From a virus, in the IMG/VR virus record IMGVR_UViG_3300029319_000199, positions 1 to 35,138 of that record: 35,138 bases of DNA; one strand, given 5' to 3'. How positions within the stretch are numbered: position 1 is the first letter of the stretch; every line of letters starts with the position of its first letter. A program made the translations under genes and the position numbers. Below, piece by piece: positions 1-6,925 of this stretch. The notes under the pieces are model-generated. The model did no database searches. It saw only the letters and a program-made list of their open reading frames with translations, and was not told the DNA's origin.

Positions 1-23
1 ATCCGGTAAAGCAACCCTCACCC

Positions 24-60
24 GCCCTCTCCTCCGTTTTGGTTTCCCGGGGGAGAGGGC
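24..60 (+). promoter_or_regulatory. GC-rich hairpin in front of the first gene
   Basis: Bases 24-36 pair with 48-60 (13 bp, one G-U pair), leaving an 11-nt loop that starts with a T run. The 3' arm continues into a CACCTTCC tail that recurs at 2215-2234. It sits 18 nt upstream of the ATG at 79. No U-run follows, so it looks more like a 5' leader structure than a terminator. A promoter for this arm was not found inside the window. Confidence 0.55.
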
Positions 61-78
61 ACCTTCCTGGGGGAAGAG

Positions 79-270
79 ATGATTCTGCTCAAGATCACAG
101 AAAAAGAAAAGCCGGTCATTCTTGAAGCTCTCCACTTCTTCGGGAGAGAGTTGGAAGACATGATCAGACAAGGCCCGGATGAGAAAACTCCCGAAGAGAT
201 TAGCAAACTAATGATCATCGATCAGATCATTGACGTGATCCAGTTGACTGATCAAAAACCCGTGTGTTAG
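79..270 (+). CDS. small helical protein, unknown
   Basis: This gene encodes 63 aa and is predicted mostly helical and charged, with an acidic middle (DEKTPEE) and a hydrophobic second helix (IIDQIIDVIQL). There is no signal peptide or membrane span. The ATG follows a purine-rich GGGGGAAGAG stretch. It is the first gene of the plus-strand replication arm, 37 nt before the Sak4-like ATPase, so a minor replication or host-takeover role is plausible but not shown. I do not recognise the family. The GC-rich hairpin just upstream may control its translation. Confidence 0.6.
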   Translation: MILLKITEKEKPVILEALHFFGRELEDMIRQGPDEKTPEEISKLMIIDQIIDVIQLTDQKPVC

Positions 271-307
271 CTTTCGTGAACCAACAAGTGTGTGTTTGGA
301 GAAATCA

Positions 308-1264
308 ATGTCTACTAAGCCTGGATCTAATGGGTCCAATGGCCGAAGCAGTTCACCTGCTGGGGGCGTATTCATCTGCCTCTATGGCCCAAGTAAAGCC
401 GGAAAAACAATCGCCTCCGCAGCCGCAGGAGCAACAGGACTTTTCATTGGAGATCCCGCTGGCCTCCTCTCTGCCCAGAGGTTTCTCGGACTTGAGAAAC
501 TAAAAGTCGCGTCAGCGAAGATCGTACCAGAAGCAACTGCTGCGATCGAAGCTGCTGTCAGTAAGGGATCGAAAGTTCCTTCTATCGTTATCGACGACTT
601 CTCTTTGATGGTTGAATCTACGATCAATGAATACGAAACCTCCAAGGGTCGAGGCGGAATGTGGTCCGCTCTGACGCGAGATGTTCTCGCCTGTCGAGAC
701 GCCGCTCGCGCGGCTACTGCCCAGGGGATGATCGTTATCTTCAACTGTCATGAACAACCTCCACGGACCAGCAGCGGTAAGTTCGTTCGCGGTGGTCCTT
801 CACTGCCCGGTCAGCTCCCAGAAAAGTTTAGTGGCATGGTCGACGTGATTGGCCGAGCAATGTTCGAGCCTACCGCTGCCCCGTGGAAATACCAACTCTG
901 CTTCAAACCCCAGGCCGACTATGTATCTGGAGATCGACTTTCCGTATTCCCGGGAATGGCTCCGATGAATGTTGCCGAGGGACTGCGAGCAGCAGGATAC
1001 TTGATTCCCTACCCCAAGGGACTTGAGTGGATCGACAAAGTTGCCCAGGGAGTTTGTGATGAGATTCTCAAAGCAGGAATCGAGAACTGGTCAGATGTTC
1101 TCCAGAGAGCTGTAGAAAAACTGAAAGGCAAACGAGAGATCGCTCATATCCGTTGGGCACTCCAGGACGGTCTTCACCGTGCCACCATCAAACATTACGA
1201 AGCCGTAGAAGCACTCGACCTGTTCTCACGACCAGTCGAAGAAGAAGAAGGCTTATTCCTTTAG
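308..1264 (+). CDS. Sak4-like RecA-fold ATPase (recombinase)
   Basis: This is a 318-aa P-loop ATPase. Walker A is GPSKAGKT at residues 27-34. Walker B is IVIDD at about 93-97, followed by FNCHEQPP near 146-153, the place where RecA-fold proteins carry a sensing residue. The single compact core with a helical C-terminus fits phage Sak4 single-strand annealing/RecA-like proteins (AAA_24 type). Those proteins bind ssDNA and work with a phage SSB, and an SSB-like gene follows here. The start is ATG 308, with TTGGAG 6-11 nt upstream. An upstream GTG at 290 lacks a good ribosome site. Inferred role: recombination and repair during replication. Confidence 0.75.
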   Translation: MSTKPGSNGSNGRSSSPAGGVFICLYGPSKAGKTIASAAAGATGLFIGDPAGLLSAQRFLGLEKLKVASAKIVPEATAAIEAAVSKGSKVPSIVIDDFSLMVESTINEYETSKGRGGMWSALTRDVLACRDAARAATAQGMIVIFNCHEQPPRTSSGKFVRGGPSLPGQLPEKFSGMVDVIGRAMFEPTAAPWKYQLCFKPQADYVSGDRLSVFPGMAPMNVAEGLRAAGYLIPYPKGLEWIDKVAQGVCDEILKAGIENWSDVLQRAVEKLKGKREIAHIRWALQDGLHRATIKHYEAVEALDLFSRPVEEEEGLFL

Positions 1265-1268
1265 TGGG

Positions 1269-1302
1269 TCGGGGACGGGTCTGGTTTTTTCCTTTGTACC
1301 AG
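1269..1302 (+). repeat. post-stop repeat, copy 1 (TCGGGGACGG ... TTTGTACCAG)
   Basis: TCGGGGACGG lies 5 nt after the stop codon of the Sak4-like gene, and TTTGTACCAG ends the element. Both blocks recur in the same order just after the next gene (1926-1982). In this copy CTGGT (1281-1285) can pair with ACCAG (1298-1302) around a T-rich loop. The rest of the 120-nt gap to 1385 shows only a weak GGGT/ACCC hairpin and the ribosome site AGGAG. Confidence 0.5.
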
Positions 1303-1384
1303 GGTTCTCGTCCTCGATCCCATCTTTCCCACTCGCGTGTGTGTTGTGGGTTTTCACCCCCAGACTTTGACATAGGAGTCATAC

Positions 1385-1918
1385 ATGTCTGTAACTATTG
1401 AACTTGATTTTACCGGCCATTCCCCTGCGGGTGCTGGTATTGGTTACCTCGAAACTGGACTGCACTCGGCTCAGATCTTGGAGTTTCGTCATTACGAAGA
1501 TTCCAACCGATTGCTCGTCTACATGATCACGGATGGCGTCCGACACAAGGACAGCTTCTCCCTGAGCACCAAAGCAATGCCTTTCCTCATGGGCTTCCTG
1601 GTGTCTGCCGGAGTTCCTGAGAACAAGCTGAAAGGAAAGACTAAGTTTCCCTTCGACAAGCTCATCGGAAAGTCCGTGTACTTCAACTACACGTCTCCCA
1701 CCATGGGCGCGAACGGTCGTCCGGTTGAGGGAAGTTATCCTGACTATCGCTACATCAATGAGAACTACTTCAATCAGATGAAGAAGGCTCAAGCTGCTCC
1801 TGCTCCTGCTGACTTTCAAGTTGAAGCCGAGCCAGCCCCTGTCTCTAACGGAGCTTCTGCGGCTCCCGTTGCAAAGACTTCCTCTGCTGATGAGTTCGAG
1901 TTCTTGATGGACAGTTGA
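1385..1918 (+). CDS. putative single-stranded DNA-binding protein
   Basis: This gene encodes 177 aa. The first ~135 residues are beta-rich, with alternating hydrophobic/aromatic residues (IELDFTGH, SVYFNYTSPT, YRYINENYF) as in small OB-fold proteins. A flexible Ala/Pro linker (about 138-165) and a short acidic-hydrophobic tail, DEFEFLMDS, follow. This core-linker-acidic-tip layout is typical of bacterial and phage SSBs, where the tail recruits replication partners. It directly follows the Sak4-like ATPase, and pairing of Sak4 with an SSB is known in phages. The start has AGGAG with 6-nt spacing. It could be another replication accessory protein, since no family signature was recognised with certainty. 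Confidence 0.6.
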   Translation: MSVTIELDFTGHSPAGAGIGYLETGLHSAQILEFRHYEDSNRLLVYMITDGVRHKDSFSLSTKAMPFLMGFLVSAGVPENKLKGKTKFPFDKLIGKSVYFNYTSPTMGANGRPVEGSYPDYRYINENYFNQMKKAQAAPAPADFQVEAEPAPVSNGASAAPVAKTSSADEFEFLMDS

Positions 1919-1925
1919 TGACTCT

Positions 1926-1982
1926 TCGGGGACGGTGGGACTCAAACCATAATGGGAATCCGCCCAGTGGATTTTGTACCAG
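1926..1982 (+). repeat. post-stop repeat, copy 2 (TCGGGGACGG ... TTTGTACCAG)
   Basis: This is the same pair of 10-nt blocks as at 1269-1302, starting 7 nt after the stop codon. The blocks are 37 nt apart here and 14 nt apart in copy 1. The sequence between them is not conserved. Confidence 0.5.
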
Positions 1983-2001
1983 CCCCCGCCGTCTCCTCTT
2001 T

Positions 2002-2040
2002 TTCCTCCGTTGCCGCTGTAGGGGCGGGCAACTGGAGGAA
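2002..2040 (+). promoter_or_regulatory. strong hairpin in the polymerase leader
   Basis: TTCCTCCGTTGCC (2002-2014) pairs with GGCAAC-T-GGAGGAA (2027-2040), giving 13 bp with one bulged T and a 12-nt loop. The arms contain CCTCC and GGAGG, i.e. an anti-Shine-Dalgarno and a Shine-Dalgarno-like sequence. It is the first structure of the 325-nt gene-free stretch 1919-2243. Confidence 0.6.
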
Positions 2041-2041
2041 G

Positions 2042-2096
2042 CCTCTCTTCCCCGTTGGTGGATCTCCGGGGGAGGGGGGCACCCCCTTTTTTATCT
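2042..2096 (+). terminator. rho-independent terminator with competing antiterminator fold
   Basis: AGGGGG (2073-2078) pairs with CCCCCT (2082-2087) around a GCA loop and runs into TTTTTTATCTTTCTT, a classical intrinsic terminator on the plus strand. The same G-run can instead pair with the upstream CCTCTCTTCCCCG (2042-2054), which would remove the terminator stem. That is the geometry of an attenuator. It lies between the SSB-like gene and the DNA polymerase. Confidence 0.6.
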
Positions 2097-2113
2097 TTCT
2101 TGGAAATTAATTA

Positions 2114-2143
2114 CCTCCCTGACCGTGTACATAGTGAGGGAGG
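2114..2143 (+). promoter_or_regulatory. CCTCCCT/AGGGAGG hairpin
   Basis: CCTCCCT (2114-2120) pairs perfectly with AGGGAGG (2137-2143) around a 16-nt loop. It follows the terminator at 2073-2096 and again pairs a CCTCC with a GGAGG. No convincing -10/-35 pair was seen in this stretch. Confidence 0.45.
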
Positions 2144-2188
2144 ACTACCAGCAATCTTTCTCCCTCAAGGGGAGGAGTGGTTACCTCC

Positions 2189-2235
2189 GGCCCCTTCCCC
2201 CTTTTGTTGTGGTTAGGGGGAGGGGGCACCTTCCC
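2189..2235 (+). promoter_or_regulatory. leader hairpin abutting the polymerase start
   Basis: The C-rich arm (about 2191-2201) pairs with GGGGGAGGGG (2216-2225), with one bulge, around a T/G-rich loop. The 3' part, AGGGGGAGGGGGCACCTTCC (2215-2234), is a near copy of 48-67. The only G-rich ribosome-site-like sequence before the ATG at 2244 lies in this arm and ends 17 nt away, so the polymerase start has no normally spaced ribosome site. Confidence 0.5.
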
Positions 2236-2243
2236 CAAAACTT

Positions 2244-4754
2244 ATGCTCTATCCAATCTGTGAAAACTGCGCCCTCAATCGGGGCGATGCCACTCCGGTA
2301 CTGTCTGAGACGCACGATGATGATCGCGTGATCATTCTGGGAGATTCTCCTGGAATGCACGAGGTAGTCGAGGGTCGTCCTTTCGTTGGTCCGGCTGGGC
2401 TTGAACTCCAGTCTGCACTGAACGCATTGAATGTGCCCAGGGATAAGTGCTACATCGCCAACGCTGTGCGATGCCGTCCTCCCAAGAATGACTTGGAGGC
2501 AGTAAATATCAAGGTTTCCCGAACCAACCGAAGGAGAGAGAAACTCGCTAAAGAAAACGGAACGGAGGCTGTCCGGCTCCTTCGTCCACTTGATGCCTGC
2601 AAGACATTGCTACTTGAAGAGCTTCGACTTTCTGGAATCAAGAAGGTCATCTGCTTAGGGAAAAACGCCGCCAAAGCGATTCGTGGTGGAGACGTTTCCA
2701 TCATGAATATTCGTGGTGGGTGTGAACTCGTCGAGGCACCCTGGGATCCAGATGTGACTCTGGAGGTGGCCTATACCATGCACCCCTCCTGGATCATGCG
2801 TCAGGCTGCATACCGCGAAGTATTCCGCCATGACCTGCGAAAAGCATTTCGCTTCTTCTCCGGTACATTGGATTGGCCCGAGCCAAAGATCACTCGCACA
2901 AACGAGGTAGAGGTTCTTGAGCGGTTCCTTGCCCGGTGGAGGGAGCAGAAGACTCCTATCGCTTATGACTTAGAGACTGATGGCATAGATCCGATGACCG
3001 CTAACGTTCGTTGCGTAGGTTTAGGAAATGAAGAAGAAGCGTTAGTTGTAGAAATCTTGAGCATCGACGGGAGTTTTTTAGCTACTCCAGACCAAATCGT
3101 TCTTCTCCAGAACTCACTGAGAAAGTTTTTCCTCGATCCCCAGGTTCCTCTACTTGGGCACAATGCGGGACAGTATGATCGACTCTGCGTAGAGTCCTGG
3201 CTGGGCATCACCCCGAATCTTACATGCGACACGATTCTCTTGCACTTGCTTGCAGACAATGAGCTGCCTCACAATCTGGGCTTTGTCGGTTCCTTTTACA
3301 CGGACAATCCGGAAGCCTGGAAAGCAGACCACACAGCAGTTGAGGCAAAGACGGACGAAGAGCTTCATATCTACTGCGGAAAGGACGTTTGTGTCACGGC
3401 TCGAATCGCGGCTCCTCTTGCCCAGGATGTGAAGAAGCGCCAACAGCAACACCTGCTCCCCAGAGAGCACATGCTCCAATCCCTGGGCGCTACGATGGAG
3501 CGAGTAGGTATGGGAGTCGACCTGGGCAAAGCCACTGAACATCTGGTCAGGTTAGACACGGAGGCGAAGATTCATCTCCGTAGATGCCAAGACATTGTAG
3601 GCGAGGGATTCAATCCCCAAAGCACTCGTCAGATGGCGAATCTTCTTTTCTCGGAGTGGGGCTTGGCTCCTCACCATTACTCAGAGAAGACGGGAGATCC
3701 TTCTACGGACGATGAAACTCTCCGTACAATGATCGTTCACTACGGACTGGAAGAGCAGCGAGTTGCATTTTTACGCTCAGTCAGGACTTATCGCAAAGTC
3801 ACCAAACTCCTGGGCACATACATCCGACCCCTGATCCAGAAGCAGATCACACGGATTCATCCCAGCTACAACCGTCTTCCCGCTACGGGCAGATACTCTT
3901 CGAGCAACCCAAACGCTCAGAATATCCCGTACAGTTTGAGGGACATCTTCGTTGCCCGGAAGGGATGCGTACTGGTTGGCGCAGACATGGATCAACTTGA
4001 GCTACGCTTGATTGCAGAAGAGGCTAAGTCTAAGCACTCACTCCGGGTTATTCGAGAAGGACTCGACCCACACAACGAGACGATGGAGATCGTATATGGC
4101 AAAGGGATATGGAAACTTGAAGGAGCCCCCAGTGATCGTAAGGAGAAGGGCAAGGGCACCTTCAAAGCAACCCGAGACATCACGAAAAACACACGCTACG
4201 CTTGGCAATACGCTGCTTCGACTAAGCGAATCCACGAGCAAATCGTCTCAGTCGAAGACGACGAAGGGAACCTCCTCTACTCACACCTCACGGTCGAAGA
4301 CGTTCGTCAAGTAGTAGAGGGTCTCAAGCGAGCAGACCCGGAGATTCCTCGTTGGTGGAGGATGATCGAAACTCGCTACCGGAAAGAAGGCTTCATTGGA
4401 GATTCTCTCTGGGATCGTCGTCGGTACTTTAGAAATGAAGACAAGATCAACGAGCTTGTAAATCACCCCATCCAGTCTGGTGGAGTGGTGATCGTCAATG
4501 AGGCGATGCTCGAACTGATCTATGGAGTCCAGGATTGGTTTGCTACAGAAGCGATCAATCCTCCCAAGGAAACACTCCCGGTTGAGTGGCTGATCAATCA
4601 TGGCCACGATGCTCTCTATTTAGAGGTGCCCGAGGGGGAAGCAGAGTTTGCTGCGGAAGTTCTGGAACAGGCCATGAACCGACGCAGGAAAGTAAACCCG
4701 CTTCTCGATTACACCGCTGCTGCGGACATCGGTAATCGCTGGAGCGAAGTGTAA
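2244..4754 (+). CDS. uracil-DNA glycosylase / family A DNA polymerase fusion
   Basis: This gene encodes 836 aa. Residues 1-205 form a family 4/5-like UDG domain: GDSPG and GRPFVGPAG (33-52), HPS (180-182), and cysteines C6, C9, C77 and C119 placed as 4Fe-4S ligands, with a ~40-residue gap between the last two. Residues 235-395 form a 3'-5' exonuclease with DLE (242-244), GHNAGQYD (N307, D312) and YCGKD (Y377, D381), so proofreading looks intact. The polymerase domain has motif A DMDQLELR (D581), motif B R644-K648-Y652-Y656 and motif C HDA (788-790). Tyr replaces the Pol I Phe762, motif B Gly residues are Ala, and HDE is HDA. A UDG-PolA fusion is known from SPO1-type phages. This is the replicative polymerase. 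Confidence 0.92.
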   Translation: MLYPICENCALNRGDATPVLSETHDDDRVIILGDSPGMHEVVEGRPFVGPAGLELQSALNALNVPRDKCYIANAVRCRPPKNDLEAVNIKVSRTNRRREKLAKENGTEAVRLLRPLDACKTLLLEELRLSGIKKVICLGKNAAKAIRGGDVSIMNIRGGCELVEAPWDPDVTLEVAYTMHPSWIMRQAAYREVFRHDLRKAFRFFSGTLDWPEPKITRTNEVEVLERFLARWREQKTPIAYDLETDGIDPMTANVRCVGLGNEEEALVVEILSIDGSFLATPDQIVLLQNSLRKFFLDPQVPLLGHNAGQYDRLCVESWLGITPNLTCDTILLHLLADNELPHNLGFVGSFYTDNPEAWKADHTAVEAKTDEELHIYCGKDVCVTARIAAPLAQDVKKRQQQHLLPREHMLQSLGATMERVGMGVDLGKATEHLVRLDTEAKIHLRRCQDIVGEGFNPQSTRQMANLLFSEWGLAPHHYSEKTGDPSTDDETLRTMIVHYGLEEQRVAFLRSVRTYRKVTKLLGTYIRPLIQKQITRIHPSYNRLPATGRYSSSNPNAQNIPYSLRDIFVARKGCVLVGADMDQLELRLIAEEAKSKHSLRVIREGLDPHNETMEIVYGKGIWKLEGAPSDRKEKGKGTFKATRDITKNTRYAWQYAASTKRIHEQIVSVEDDEGNLLYSHLTVEDVRQVVEGLKRADPEIPRWWRMIETRYRKEGFIGDSLWDRRRYFRNEDKINELVNHPIQSGGVVIVNEAMLELIYGVQDWFATEAINPPKETLPVEWLINHGHDALYLEVPEGEAEFAAEVLEQAMNRRRKVNPLLDYTAAADIGNRWSEV

Positions 4755-4763
4755 GGAGATGAG

Positions 4764-5273
4764 ATGAGTCAAGTGATTAGAATCTTCTATGCCCACCCAT
4801 CCGGTGAGGACAAGAAGACCATTGCGAAGCAAAGCATTCGCATTAGAGAGTTAGTCCGTGGTCGGGGAGATCGCGTGGGTAAGGATCTGAGAGTTTCCGT
4901 CATCTCGGGAAGGGACGACTTTCGGATCAACTGCCGGGGAGATTGGAATACATGGGCCAAGAGTGTAGTGATGAGAGAGCACGCAATCACTCGAAAGCCC
5001 TACTACGACTTCGTAGTAATCCCCAGCACAGCAGTAGGCAGGGCGACCGCACAGATTGTTGATGTGGCGGTCAGGCGTGGTCGTCCTGTCTTCTTGCTGA
5101 CCACCGATCAGGACAAGGATCGACTGGAGAGAGTCACTCAGGTCTATCCGTTTGATGTAGACGATTGGCAGGGAGGCTTTCGTTGCGAAGGCCCCCCTTC
5201 CCCCAAAGAGCCCGGGGAGGGTTCGGAACAGCTTGAACTCCCGTTGGAGTTGAAGGGAAATCCCAATGGCTAA
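4764..5273 (+). CDS. Rossmann-like phage protein, possibly deoxyribosyltransferase-like
   Basis: This gene encodes 169 aa. It opens with a strand-turn (IRIFYAHPSGED), followed by VISGRDDF and then DFVVIPSTAVGRATAQIVD with VRRGRPVFLL. That is an alternating beta/alpha pattern with a Gly-rich turn before a helix, as in nucleoside deoxyribosyltransferase-like and SLOG-type folds. A DDWQGGF element ends the fold, and the last ~25 residues are Pro/Glu-rich. It starts 9 nt after the polymerase, with AAGGAG upstream of ATG, and overlaps the next gene by 8 nt. Nucleotide metabolism or nucleotide-signal sensing would fit. The catalytic Glu expected of deoxyribosyltransferases is not obvious, so function is open. 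Confidence 0.6.
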   Translation: MSQVIRIFYAHPSGEDKKTIAKQSIRIRELVRGRGDRVGKDLRVSVISGRDDFRINCRGDWNTWAKSVVMREHAITRKPYYDFVVIPSTAVGRATAQIVDVAVRRGRPVFLLTTDQDKDRLERVTQVYPFDVDDWQGGFRCEGPPSPKEPGEGSEQLELPLELKGNPNG

Positions 5274-5523: not shown

Positions 5524-6842
5524 GTCACGTTGTAAGAGTAGTTTCCAACATCAAGAGTCCAGACGGAACTCCCTACGAAGTCCCTCTGGGCAAGAACACT
5601 GTCCTGATCGGAGCAAATGAGGCCGGAAAGAGTGCGGTTGCAGAATCGGTTCAACTTGCCCGGACAGGAACCGCTTATGGTCTTCTCTACCGAGACAAGC
5701 CAATCAAGGATGGATCTCTTCTGTCCGCGCTGATTCCAGACATCTCCAACTCGGCTGTCGTCACTGTGCAGTTAGATGACGGAGAGACTTCTTTCTGGGA
5801 ACTGGAGAGAGGAAAGCGGCCCAAGAGAGGGGGATCAGAAGGATCAACCTTGTCTGTAGCCGAACTCCACGCCGTGATGGCAGGCAACGATGAGACAAAG
5901 GCAAAGTTCTTCTGGAACAAGCTCTGCTCGGATATTGCTGTCGGAGATCTCATAGGTCTCATTGATGAGGATCTCCACGAGACTTTAGTTCTTGTGTGTC
6001 CTCTTGCAGATGGGCGAGTCAACCTTGTCGACGCTCTCGCTCGCCTGGGTAAGATTCAACGGAATCAATCGAGTACAGTCAAAGCAGGACAGATTGCATT
6101 AGAATCCTTGGGCTCTTTCCAAGAAGTCAGCGATGCGGAGTTGATCGGAGTGGGCAAGGGGCTATCTCGCGCACATCTTCGGGACTTGGTTCAAACCATC
6201 TACGTCGACTATCGCTCAGATCCAACTCTCCAAGCTTCTCATGTGTTGCGTCATCTGGTTTCTCTTCTCGGAGGGCAGGATGCTATCAAGCGCATTCCTC
6301 CCACGGAAGAAGTCCAAGCTGAGTATGCGGAGGTTCTTCTATCGAAACGTCTCTGCCGAGCCGCCATTGCTGCCCGGAATGGAGAGAAGCGTGCGAAGTC
6401 TCTTCAAGACTCTCTGAAACAGCTCAAGTCGGCGCTCCTTGAAGTGATGTTCAAGATGATCGAAGCTGCTTCTCGTAACTTCTCCGATGCTGTCAGTGTG
6501 TTTCTGCCCGAGGGAGAGAAGTTTGTGTTCGAGGTTCAGGGAGACTTCCGACTTCGAATCGGACTCGAACGAGACAACGAGACGCATACTGCCCTGTCAG
6601 GAAGCACCGAAGCTCGTCTTCTTGCAGCCATTGCTGCCCAGTTGGGCGGGAAAGACGATCTGATCGTTGTAGATGATCGCATGTGGGATGCAGACACTCT
6701 GGCCCGGACGATGAGTGTTCTGGAGAAAGCAGAGTCTCAGGTAATCCTGATGACAACGCTAAAGCCAAAAGGGAGAAAGAAAGCAAACTGGACATACGTC
6801 GAGATTGCTCGCACTCCTGGTCATCCCCTTGAGGTGAACTGA
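5520..6842 (+). CDS. SMC/RecF-like ABC ATPase
   Basis: This gene encodes 440 aa. Walker A is GANEAGKSA (31-39) in the Rad50/RecF style (GxNExGKS). An ABC signature, LSGSTEAR, lies at about 359-366, and a Walker B-like LIVVDDRMWD at about 381-390. The last Walker B residues deviate from the usual hhhhDEP. A basic helical segment (about 285-310, KRAKSLQDSLKQLKSAL) separates the halves in place of a long coiled coil. Similar short SMC-like ATPases are common in phage replication modules. It is the last plus-strand gene, joined by ATGA to the helix-turn-helix gene. Inferred role: DNA end processing, repair or protection of replicating phage DNA. Confidence 0.75.
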   Translation: MSHVVRVVSNIKSPDGTPYEVPLGKNTVLIGANEAGKSAVAESVQLARTGTAYGLLYRDKPIKDGSLLSALIPDISNSAVVTVQLDDGETSFWELERGKRPKRGGSEGSTLSVAELHAVMAGNDETKAKFFWNKLCSDIAVGDLIGLIDEDLHETLVLVCPLADGRVNLVDALARLGKIQRNQSSTVKAGQIALESLGSFQEVSDAELIGVGKGLSRAHLRDLVQTIYVDYRSDPTLQASHVLRHLVSLLGGQDAIKRIPPTEEVQAEYAEVLLSKRLCRAAIAARNGEKRAKSLQDSLKQLKSALLEVMFKMIEAASRNFSDAVSVFLPEGEKFVFEVQGDFRLRIGLERDNETHTALSGSTEARLLAAIAAQLGGKDDLIVVDDRMWDADTLARTMSVLEKAESQVILMTTLKPKGRKKANWTYVEIARTPGHPLEVN

Positions 6843-6845
6843 AAA

Positions 6846-6924
6846 ATAGTGGTGGGGGAGGAGAAGAAAAACAGGCACATCTTCTCACTAAGGGCCCAAC
6901 GCCTCGTCTCCCCCACCACCCTAT
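6846..6924. terminator. bidirectional terminator between convergent arms
   Basis: TGGTGGGGGAG (6850-6860) pairs perfectly with CTCCCCCACCA (6908-6918). A nested GAGAAG/CTTCTC hairpin lies at 6861-6886. An A-run precedes the stem and a T-rich tract follows it, so it could end transcripts from both directions. It fills the 83-nt gap between the two converging gene arms. Confidence 0.7.
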
Positions 6925-6925
6925 T

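Follow-up and report, generated by a model that had tools for sequence, protein, structure and literature searches.

The window, by which we mean the whole stretch of DNA analysed here, is the IMG/VR record of an uncultured virus, 35,138 bases long and probably of marine source. A gap of 325 nt (1919–2243) is bounded by the TGA stop of an SSB-like gene (1916–1918) and the ATG of a polymerase gene (2244). The genes and folds of this region are as follows.

24–60, plus strand: module C copy 0, before the 63-aa gene
Start of the plus-strand gene run, before the Sak4-like gene: 63-aa gene
290–1264, plus strand: gene of a Sak4-like AAA protein
1385–1918, plus strand: gene of an SSB-like protein of 177 aa with an acidic tail, DEFEFLMDS (AlphaFold2 model, with PDB and viral model matches)
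1928–1996, plus strand: module A, with a 12-bp closing stem (P1), a large internal loop and an inner hairpin (model score 72.6 bits, the window copy itself being among the 14 training sequences; covariation in P1)
1997–2003, plus strand: UCUUUUU tract directly after module A, a terminator-like tail by its sequence
2002–2040, plus strand: module G hairpin (−24.9, z −4.6), seen in this window only
2041–2080, plus strand: module C copy 1, a 13-bp hairpin 2041–2053/2068–2080 (−26.9, z −3.0)
2074–2092, plus strand: competing terminator-like hairpin 2074–2078/2082–2086 with T6 (2087–2092), disfavoured by about 7 kcal/mol
2087–2092, plus strand: U-tract, the cassette border where homology with the related locus L003 resumes (blastn)
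2093–2185, plus strand: module H, a spacer with hairpins 2114–2143 and 2153–2182, also in loci L003 and L062
2190–2227, plus strand: module C copy 2, hairpin 2190–2202/2215–2227 (−29.3, z −2.2)
2244–4754, plus strand: polymerase gene, 836 aa, with UDG, 3'–5' exonuclease and family A DNA polymerase domains

Pfam and PHROG searches with the 177-aa protein gave no match. The best PDB match of its AlphaFold2 model (pLDDT 83) is PrgE of plasmid pCF10 (E 7.7e-6), an OB-fold protein binding single-stranded DNA, and among the viral models it matches are those of DUF669 proteins and of one protein annotated as binding single-stranded DNA; because of these structure matches and its acidic tail, the protein is called SSB-like here. 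In the polymerase (2244–4754), the uracil-DNA glycosylase domain is fused N-terminally to the family A polymerase.

Folding of the gap before the polymerase gene

The original prediction described the gap as a hairpin-rich leader, and folding agrees: the whole-leader minimum free energy (MFE) is −148.3 kcal/mol (z −3.55), with 0/100 shuffles as low, and the segment 1921–2040 has the lowest MFE among 1168 segments of 120 nt taken from both strands (rank 8 by z). Of the four or more hairpins announced, those at 2002–2040, 2114–2143 (−15.4, z −2.8) and 2190–2227 are singly beyond shuffles; the terminator hairpin alone (2074–2086) is within chance (z −0.86; 43/200 shuffles as stable). Its predicted alternative partner arm was borne out as the module C copy 1 hairpin. 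The statement that most hairpins pair a CCTCC with a GGAGG holds for 2002–2040 and 2114–2143 and fails for the other two of the four. The longest and best conserved fold, 1928–1996 with its U-tract at 1999–2003, had been missed, as had the hairpin 2153–2182.

The polymerase ATG at 2244 lacks a usual ribosome site, as was first noted, and this is common to most relatives (29/38). The proposed principle of Shine–Dalgarno and anti-Shine–Dalgarno pairing found no support: the CCTCC/GGAGG arms are not kept in relatives, and the start region 2228–2243 is predicted open (probability unpaired 0.88–0.98). Sequestration of a Shine–Dalgarno was rejected, there being none at the polymerase start and the start region being open.

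A simple terminator scan found 2068–2092 as the sole site on the plus strand of this leader; its loop limit of 8 places module A out of its reach. The arrangement of an intrinsic terminator, in which a U-tract begins no more than about 2 nt after a GC-rich stem, is present in module A, where the stem ends at 1996 and the T residues occupy 1999–2003. A possible pseudoknot in module G joins the loop 2020–2025 to 2041–2046 (span 2009–2046) and is not significant alone, being equalled or beaten in 30/150 shuffles. A search for module G homologues gave two matches, both of which look like a single chance match in unrelated DNA.

These overlapping folds could form a cis-acting switch, an attenuator or riboswitch responding to a ligand, the ribosome or a phage protein, in which the mutually exclusive module G pseudoknot, module C copy 1 hairpin and terminator would decide readthrough into the polymerase gene. 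The pseudoknot strand 2041–2046 does overlap an arm of module C copy 1, which in turn overlaps the terminator. The free fold (−53.3 kcal/mol) and the fold with the terminator enforced (−46.0 kcal/mol) are 7.3 apart; if the arms of the pseudoknot are held out while the terminator is formed, the value is −42.1, and adding the pseudoknot duplex (−7.8) shrinks the difference to roughly 3 kcal/mol, its loop costs being ignored. However, module G has no homologue, its pseudoknot is matched by shuffles, and the pair probability of the terminator is 3e-5 within 2001–2100 alone and 0.15 in the whole leader. The exclusive folds are not kept in relatives, the only one of 11 module C members with an adjoining T-run being copy 1 of the window, and we consider such a switch unlikely. 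The single dedicated attenuator originally proposed is likewise not supported and would at most be peculiar to the window: its terminator and T6 are specific to it, and the region is made up of independent cassettes, as a mosaic.

Strong hairpins were also seen outside the gap. A long one at 1264–1323, directly 3' of the Sak4-like gene (z −6.1 within 1262–1350), is as striking as the leader folds, and relatives carry other sequences at this site. Another, at 6843–6925, lies between convergent gene blocks (the plus-strand segment at 6841 ranks 3 of 1168 by z) and is probably a two-way terminator.

Conserved modules in related loci

A viral contig scan yielded 61 related loci with the polymerase, many of the sequences being fragments; their SSB-like proteins are 39–92% identical to that of the window (tblastn). 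Among the 62 sequences including the window, 60 have both genes and there are 43 distinct gap sequences. Most of the other 42 hold different module sets, many beginning with module B and some carrying a tRNA-Asn; five distinct gaps are shorter than 55 nt and have no array. The orders at the polymerase site, read by eye with module A assigned by model and module B by pattern and model, include the following.

Window: A-G-C-H-C
L003: B-H-C
L062: B-D-A-H-C
L010: B-D-F-A
L011 and L004: B-D-A
L005 and L008: B-tRNA-D-A
L014: B-A
L012 and L009: B
L013: B-B

Judged by its sequences, module A is the best supported cassette of the leader. Its layout is a stem starting with GGAG, an inner hairpin, UGUACCAG, the closing stem and a U-tract. 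In an alignment of 14 sequences (L181 omitted; one outer pair trimmed from L014, L018 and L059), 99.4% of P1 stem cells are paired versus 91.2% with shuffled partners (0/500 as high), both sides have changed in 6/12 pairs, and sliding the partner by 1–3 columns lowers the pairing to 50–75%. Counted separately over 15 sequences, pairing is 98.3% versus 82.3%, and 2000 shuffles reached 95% at most. Pairing in the leader is in part conserved across relatives, with covariation as in P1; the T-run with its terminator occurs in the window only. A loose search pattern caught 60 stretches, most of them by chance; a tighter one found 15, of which that of L182 looks like chance. A run of at least four T follows within 10 nt in 11/15 copies of module A, the background in random 10-mers of these contigs being 1.8%.

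Wobble cells in module A comprise 17 G-U and 1 A-C, which indicates that the folded molecule is RNA of the gene strand. This bears on the idea that the array works as DNA, as a folded single strand in replication (an origin or a primase site), such as has been considered for STAXI. The neighbours are indeed replication genes, and STAXI pseudoknots lie near ssb genes (PMC2864571). The wobble pattern is that expected of RNA, U-tract tails are present, and the best-scoring strand for module A at the polymerase site is that of the polymerase gene, all of which makes a DNA-level element highly improbable.

Module B is an H-type pseudoknot with the loop RCAGGRAGGCAYR. In 26 distinct cores, hand-picked from 45 unique ones, pairing is 99.4% versus 84.4%, with double changes in 8/12 pairs and in both pseudoknot stems; over all 45 cores the values are 98.7% versus 72.0% for stem 1 and 99.7% versus 95.1% for stem 2. 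The search pattern had fixed most of stem S2, so the real test lies in stem 1 and the outer S2 pairs (11-43, 12-42 and 17-37). A stem P1 (GACC/GGTC) was discarded as indistinguishable from chance (own partners 10/18, other partners 57%). A run of at least four T within 10 nt follows 19/45 copies (background 1.8%). Two or three copies lie close together in L013, L077, L089, L097, L100, L102 and L114. A model search of the window for module B found none.

Modules D and F are long-stem folds, their stem being paired in 98.9% versus 93.0% (2/2000 shuffles as high), and module K is a compact H-type pseudoknot of 30 nt, with one or two per gap 3' of the SSB stop (L043 3737–3810, L046, L047 and L058 3946); both of its stems are paired throughout (equalled by 19 and 0 of 2000 shuffles; 11 of 12 used), kinship among the sequences inflating the shuffle tests on the modules. 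Every D/F copy (L004, L008, L010, L062, L069, L095 and L115) starts with ATG, several with open frames of 8–10 codons, which may be coincidence or may encode a leader peptide. Module C, a GC-rich hairpin ending in GGGCACC, has 11 members in a listing that left out loci L116–L180, and only the copy at 2041 has an adjoining T-run. Copy 2 has a counterpart in L003, and in L062 one with different arms; the alignment of the family is poor, and this covariation was judged by eye only. In L025, L026, L027 and L057, a C hairpin apparently falls within the polymerase frame, downstream of an ATG that overlaps the SSB stop, and a small preceding hairpin might form a pseudoknot. Of 14 stretches matching the module H pattern, two were inspected and taken as real: L075, on the L062 contig, and L083, on the L003 contig.

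Modules B and D are separated by a tRNA-Asn (GTT), identified by ARAGORN, in L005 at 3757–3831 and in L008 at 3760–3834. The cassettes might be small RNA genes, released by processing to act in trans as tRNA, decoys or antitoxin mimics like pseudo-ToxI of phage phiTE, which provides a precedent (PMC3475682). The tRNA is real, the cassettes are near tRNA size with conserved loops, and pseudoknots stand in tandem in L013 and L102. Against this, Rfam has no match to any such RNA in the window, either at the gathering score or at a permissive high E-value, and in 28 relative loci it matches only tRNA, in two, with neither STAXI (RF01728) nor an antitoxin RNA among them; the window, moreover, has no B pseudoknot. 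We regard trans-acting RNAs as a distinctly doubtful explanation.

Gain, loss and exchange of cassettes

The window and L003 align (blastn) in two blocks, 73–1911 and 2087–2600, between which the 175 bases of the window have no similarity to the 72 of L003. The first border lies 7 nt before the end of the SSB gene, and the second exactly at the U-tract. The flanking genes are 89.6% (SSB) and 89.7% (polymerase) identical in DNA, but the cassettes differ. The homology of L003 to the window begins at 73, so that L003 lacks module C copy 0. Compared with L004, L005 has a clean 77-nt insert that contains the tRNA, and a single F module distinguishes L010 from L011. At a second site, which follows a 249-aa gene, the orders are B-D-A in L069, B-D-F-A in L095 and B-F-A in L115; the alignment of L069 with L095 breaks within D rather than at a U-tract.

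Between the window and L011, module A is 97.1% identical and the flanking genes are 63.8% (ssb) and 68.0% (polymerase) identical; between the window and L008, it is 75.4% identical, with a polymerase identity of 77.3%. Module A is therefore not simply slow to change, and exchange is likelier.

Whole records (24 in all) contain a single A and a single cluster made up of one to three B copies, weak matches (E >0.001) being disregarded. A dispersed repeat element was ruled out, as GGGGGAGNGGGCACC has just two exact places in the window and A and B have one place or cluster per record. In bacterial genomes, the module B pattern had 11 matches, of which 10, without the flanking stem, were set aside by eye. 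The eleventh (L181) is a real B-D-A-like array on a contig, encoding the same polymerase, of a metagenome-assembled genome (MAG, labelled Proteobacteria bacterium BH10); as it carries the SSB-array-polymerase locus, it looks like phage DNA binned as bacterial. In annotated phage records neither the array nor close genes were found, polymerase matches there being below 60% identity.

From these sequence comparisons, we conclude that the gap holds a row of interchangeable structured-RNA cassettes, whose gain, loss and exchange are clean and mostly occur at U-tracts.

The array adjoins the OB-fold SSB-like gene in most relatives, and pseudoknots recur there: an H-type pseudoknot with a score of at least 11 is found in 25/37 gaps versus 3.0 expected from composition shuffles (37 of the 43 unique gaps, leaving out the five of less than 55 nt and L042 of more than 450 nt). 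By analogy with gene 32 of phage T4, the SSB might bind the folded leader as an operator and so repress the polymerase or cap its own mRNA. The array is, however, downstream of the SSB gene, and in T4 the pseudoknot precedes gene 32 itself (PMC3014915). Furthermore, similar SSB genes are followed by different modules, as in L003 and the window, and modules also occur beside other genes. An SSB operator appears quite improbable.

Possible function and comparison with known systems

The sequences establish the fold of module A, the mosaic turnover at sharp borders and the U-tract tails; the function considered here is inferred. In the explanation we favour, with about even chances, the cassettes are stacked leaky terminators and 3'-end caps lowering polymerase relative to SSB. 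Each cassette would be an autonomous strong fold, a long-stem hairpin or an H-type pseudoknot usually ending in a U-tract, and its action would be in cis, on the co-directional transcript: as one of several stacked, leaky intrinsic terminators and as a block to 3' exonucleases. The SSB mRNA, with its normal ribosome site, would be made and kept in excess; the mRNA of the polymerase, which has no Shine–Dalgarno and would arise through readthrough, would stay low. Any strong fold with a U-tract would suffice, so that the cassettes would be freely swappable, which would explain the turnover. Such a role retains part of the regulatory leader first proposed to set the polymerase dose, which is structured beyond chance, terminator-like and suitably placed; it dispenses with the Shine–Dalgarno pairing and the single attenuator.

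A Shine–Dalgarno precedes 30/32 ssb starts versus 9/38 polymerase starts, in counts based on script-picked starts of which a few may be wrong. Polymerase starts without one are often preceded by a U-tract and AGCCCAACA(CT)-ATG (L004, L008, L010, L012, L017, L033 and window 2228–2246), perhaps a short-leader or processed start. No promoter-like site was found in the window at 1–5000, at the polymerase site of L005 (3500–4100) or behind module B in L114. With no promoter behind the array, polymerase expression must come via readthrough or processing; full termination would silence the polymerase, so only leaky termination fits. At the second site of L095, the array is followed by a sigma-70-like promoter, TTGACA-17-TATTCT, which would fit an array that closes one unit and a promoter that opens the next.

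Several features fit stacked terminators poorly. Only 19/45 module B copies have the 4-T run, a tRNA in the array needs processing rather than termination, and the loops of A and B (in B, CAGGRAGGCAYG) show much stronger conservation than a plain terminator would require, a hint at a binding partner. A broader possibility, to which we give a rather low probability, is an 'RNA cassette array', a fixed intergenic slot that captures, orders and exchanges unrelated tRNA-sized RNA folds (pseudoknots, aptamer-like long-stem folds and a tRNA) at U-tracts, at least some of which would be released RNAs or sensors of ligands or proteins instead of plain terminators.

Publications describing these modules were not found in a partial literature collection. 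The PeSLs of T4-type phages are reportedly mobile promoter/stem-loop cassettes (Arbiol et al. 2010). The present arrays resemble them as intergenic stem-loop cassettes exchanged between related phage genomes. They differ in that a PeSL has an early promoter beside the stem-loop and here none was found at the polymerase site, the second site of L095 alone having one; in that several unrelated folds, including pseudoknots and a tRNA, share one array; and in that the phage, as far as seen, is not T4-type (family A polymerase).

The STAXI motif (RF01728) consists of pseudoknots, two or three in tandem, near genes of single-stranded DNA-binding proteins (PMC2864571). Our loci share the pseudoknots near SSB genes, with two or three B copies close together in some relatives, but lack an Rfam match, mix unlike modules and, in the window, have no supported pseudoknot. 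The T4 gene 32 operator, a pseudoknot upstream of the gene 32 SSB start (PMC3014915), is alike in tying a pseudoknot RNA to a phage SSB gene; here the arrays stand 3' of the SSB stop and before the polymerase gene. Intrinsic (rho-independent) terminators share the GC-rich stem followed by a U-tract; unlike them, module A encloses a large structured loop, the last stem of module B is a pseudoknot, and the loops are conserved. Phage phiTE pseudo-ToxI mimics the ToxI antitoxin RNA and is comparable as a phage-borne set of pseudoknot repeats of changing copy number (PMC3475682); the cassettes here differ in matching no Rfam antitoxin RNA model.

None of the PeSLs, STAXI, the T4 gene 32 operator and the ToxI mimics fits all the defining features tested. 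As none of these systems fits and Rfam has no match, modules A, B, D/F and K, with the covariation found here, are new candidate structured-RNA families absent from Rfam. The phage locus that carries them evolves through the exchange of complete RNA folds, and the proteins encoded beside it change slowly. Should the cassettes be terminators, they would be natural pseudoknotted and large-loop terminators setting the ratio of SSB to polymerase; if not, their conserved loops would mark unknown RNA partners.
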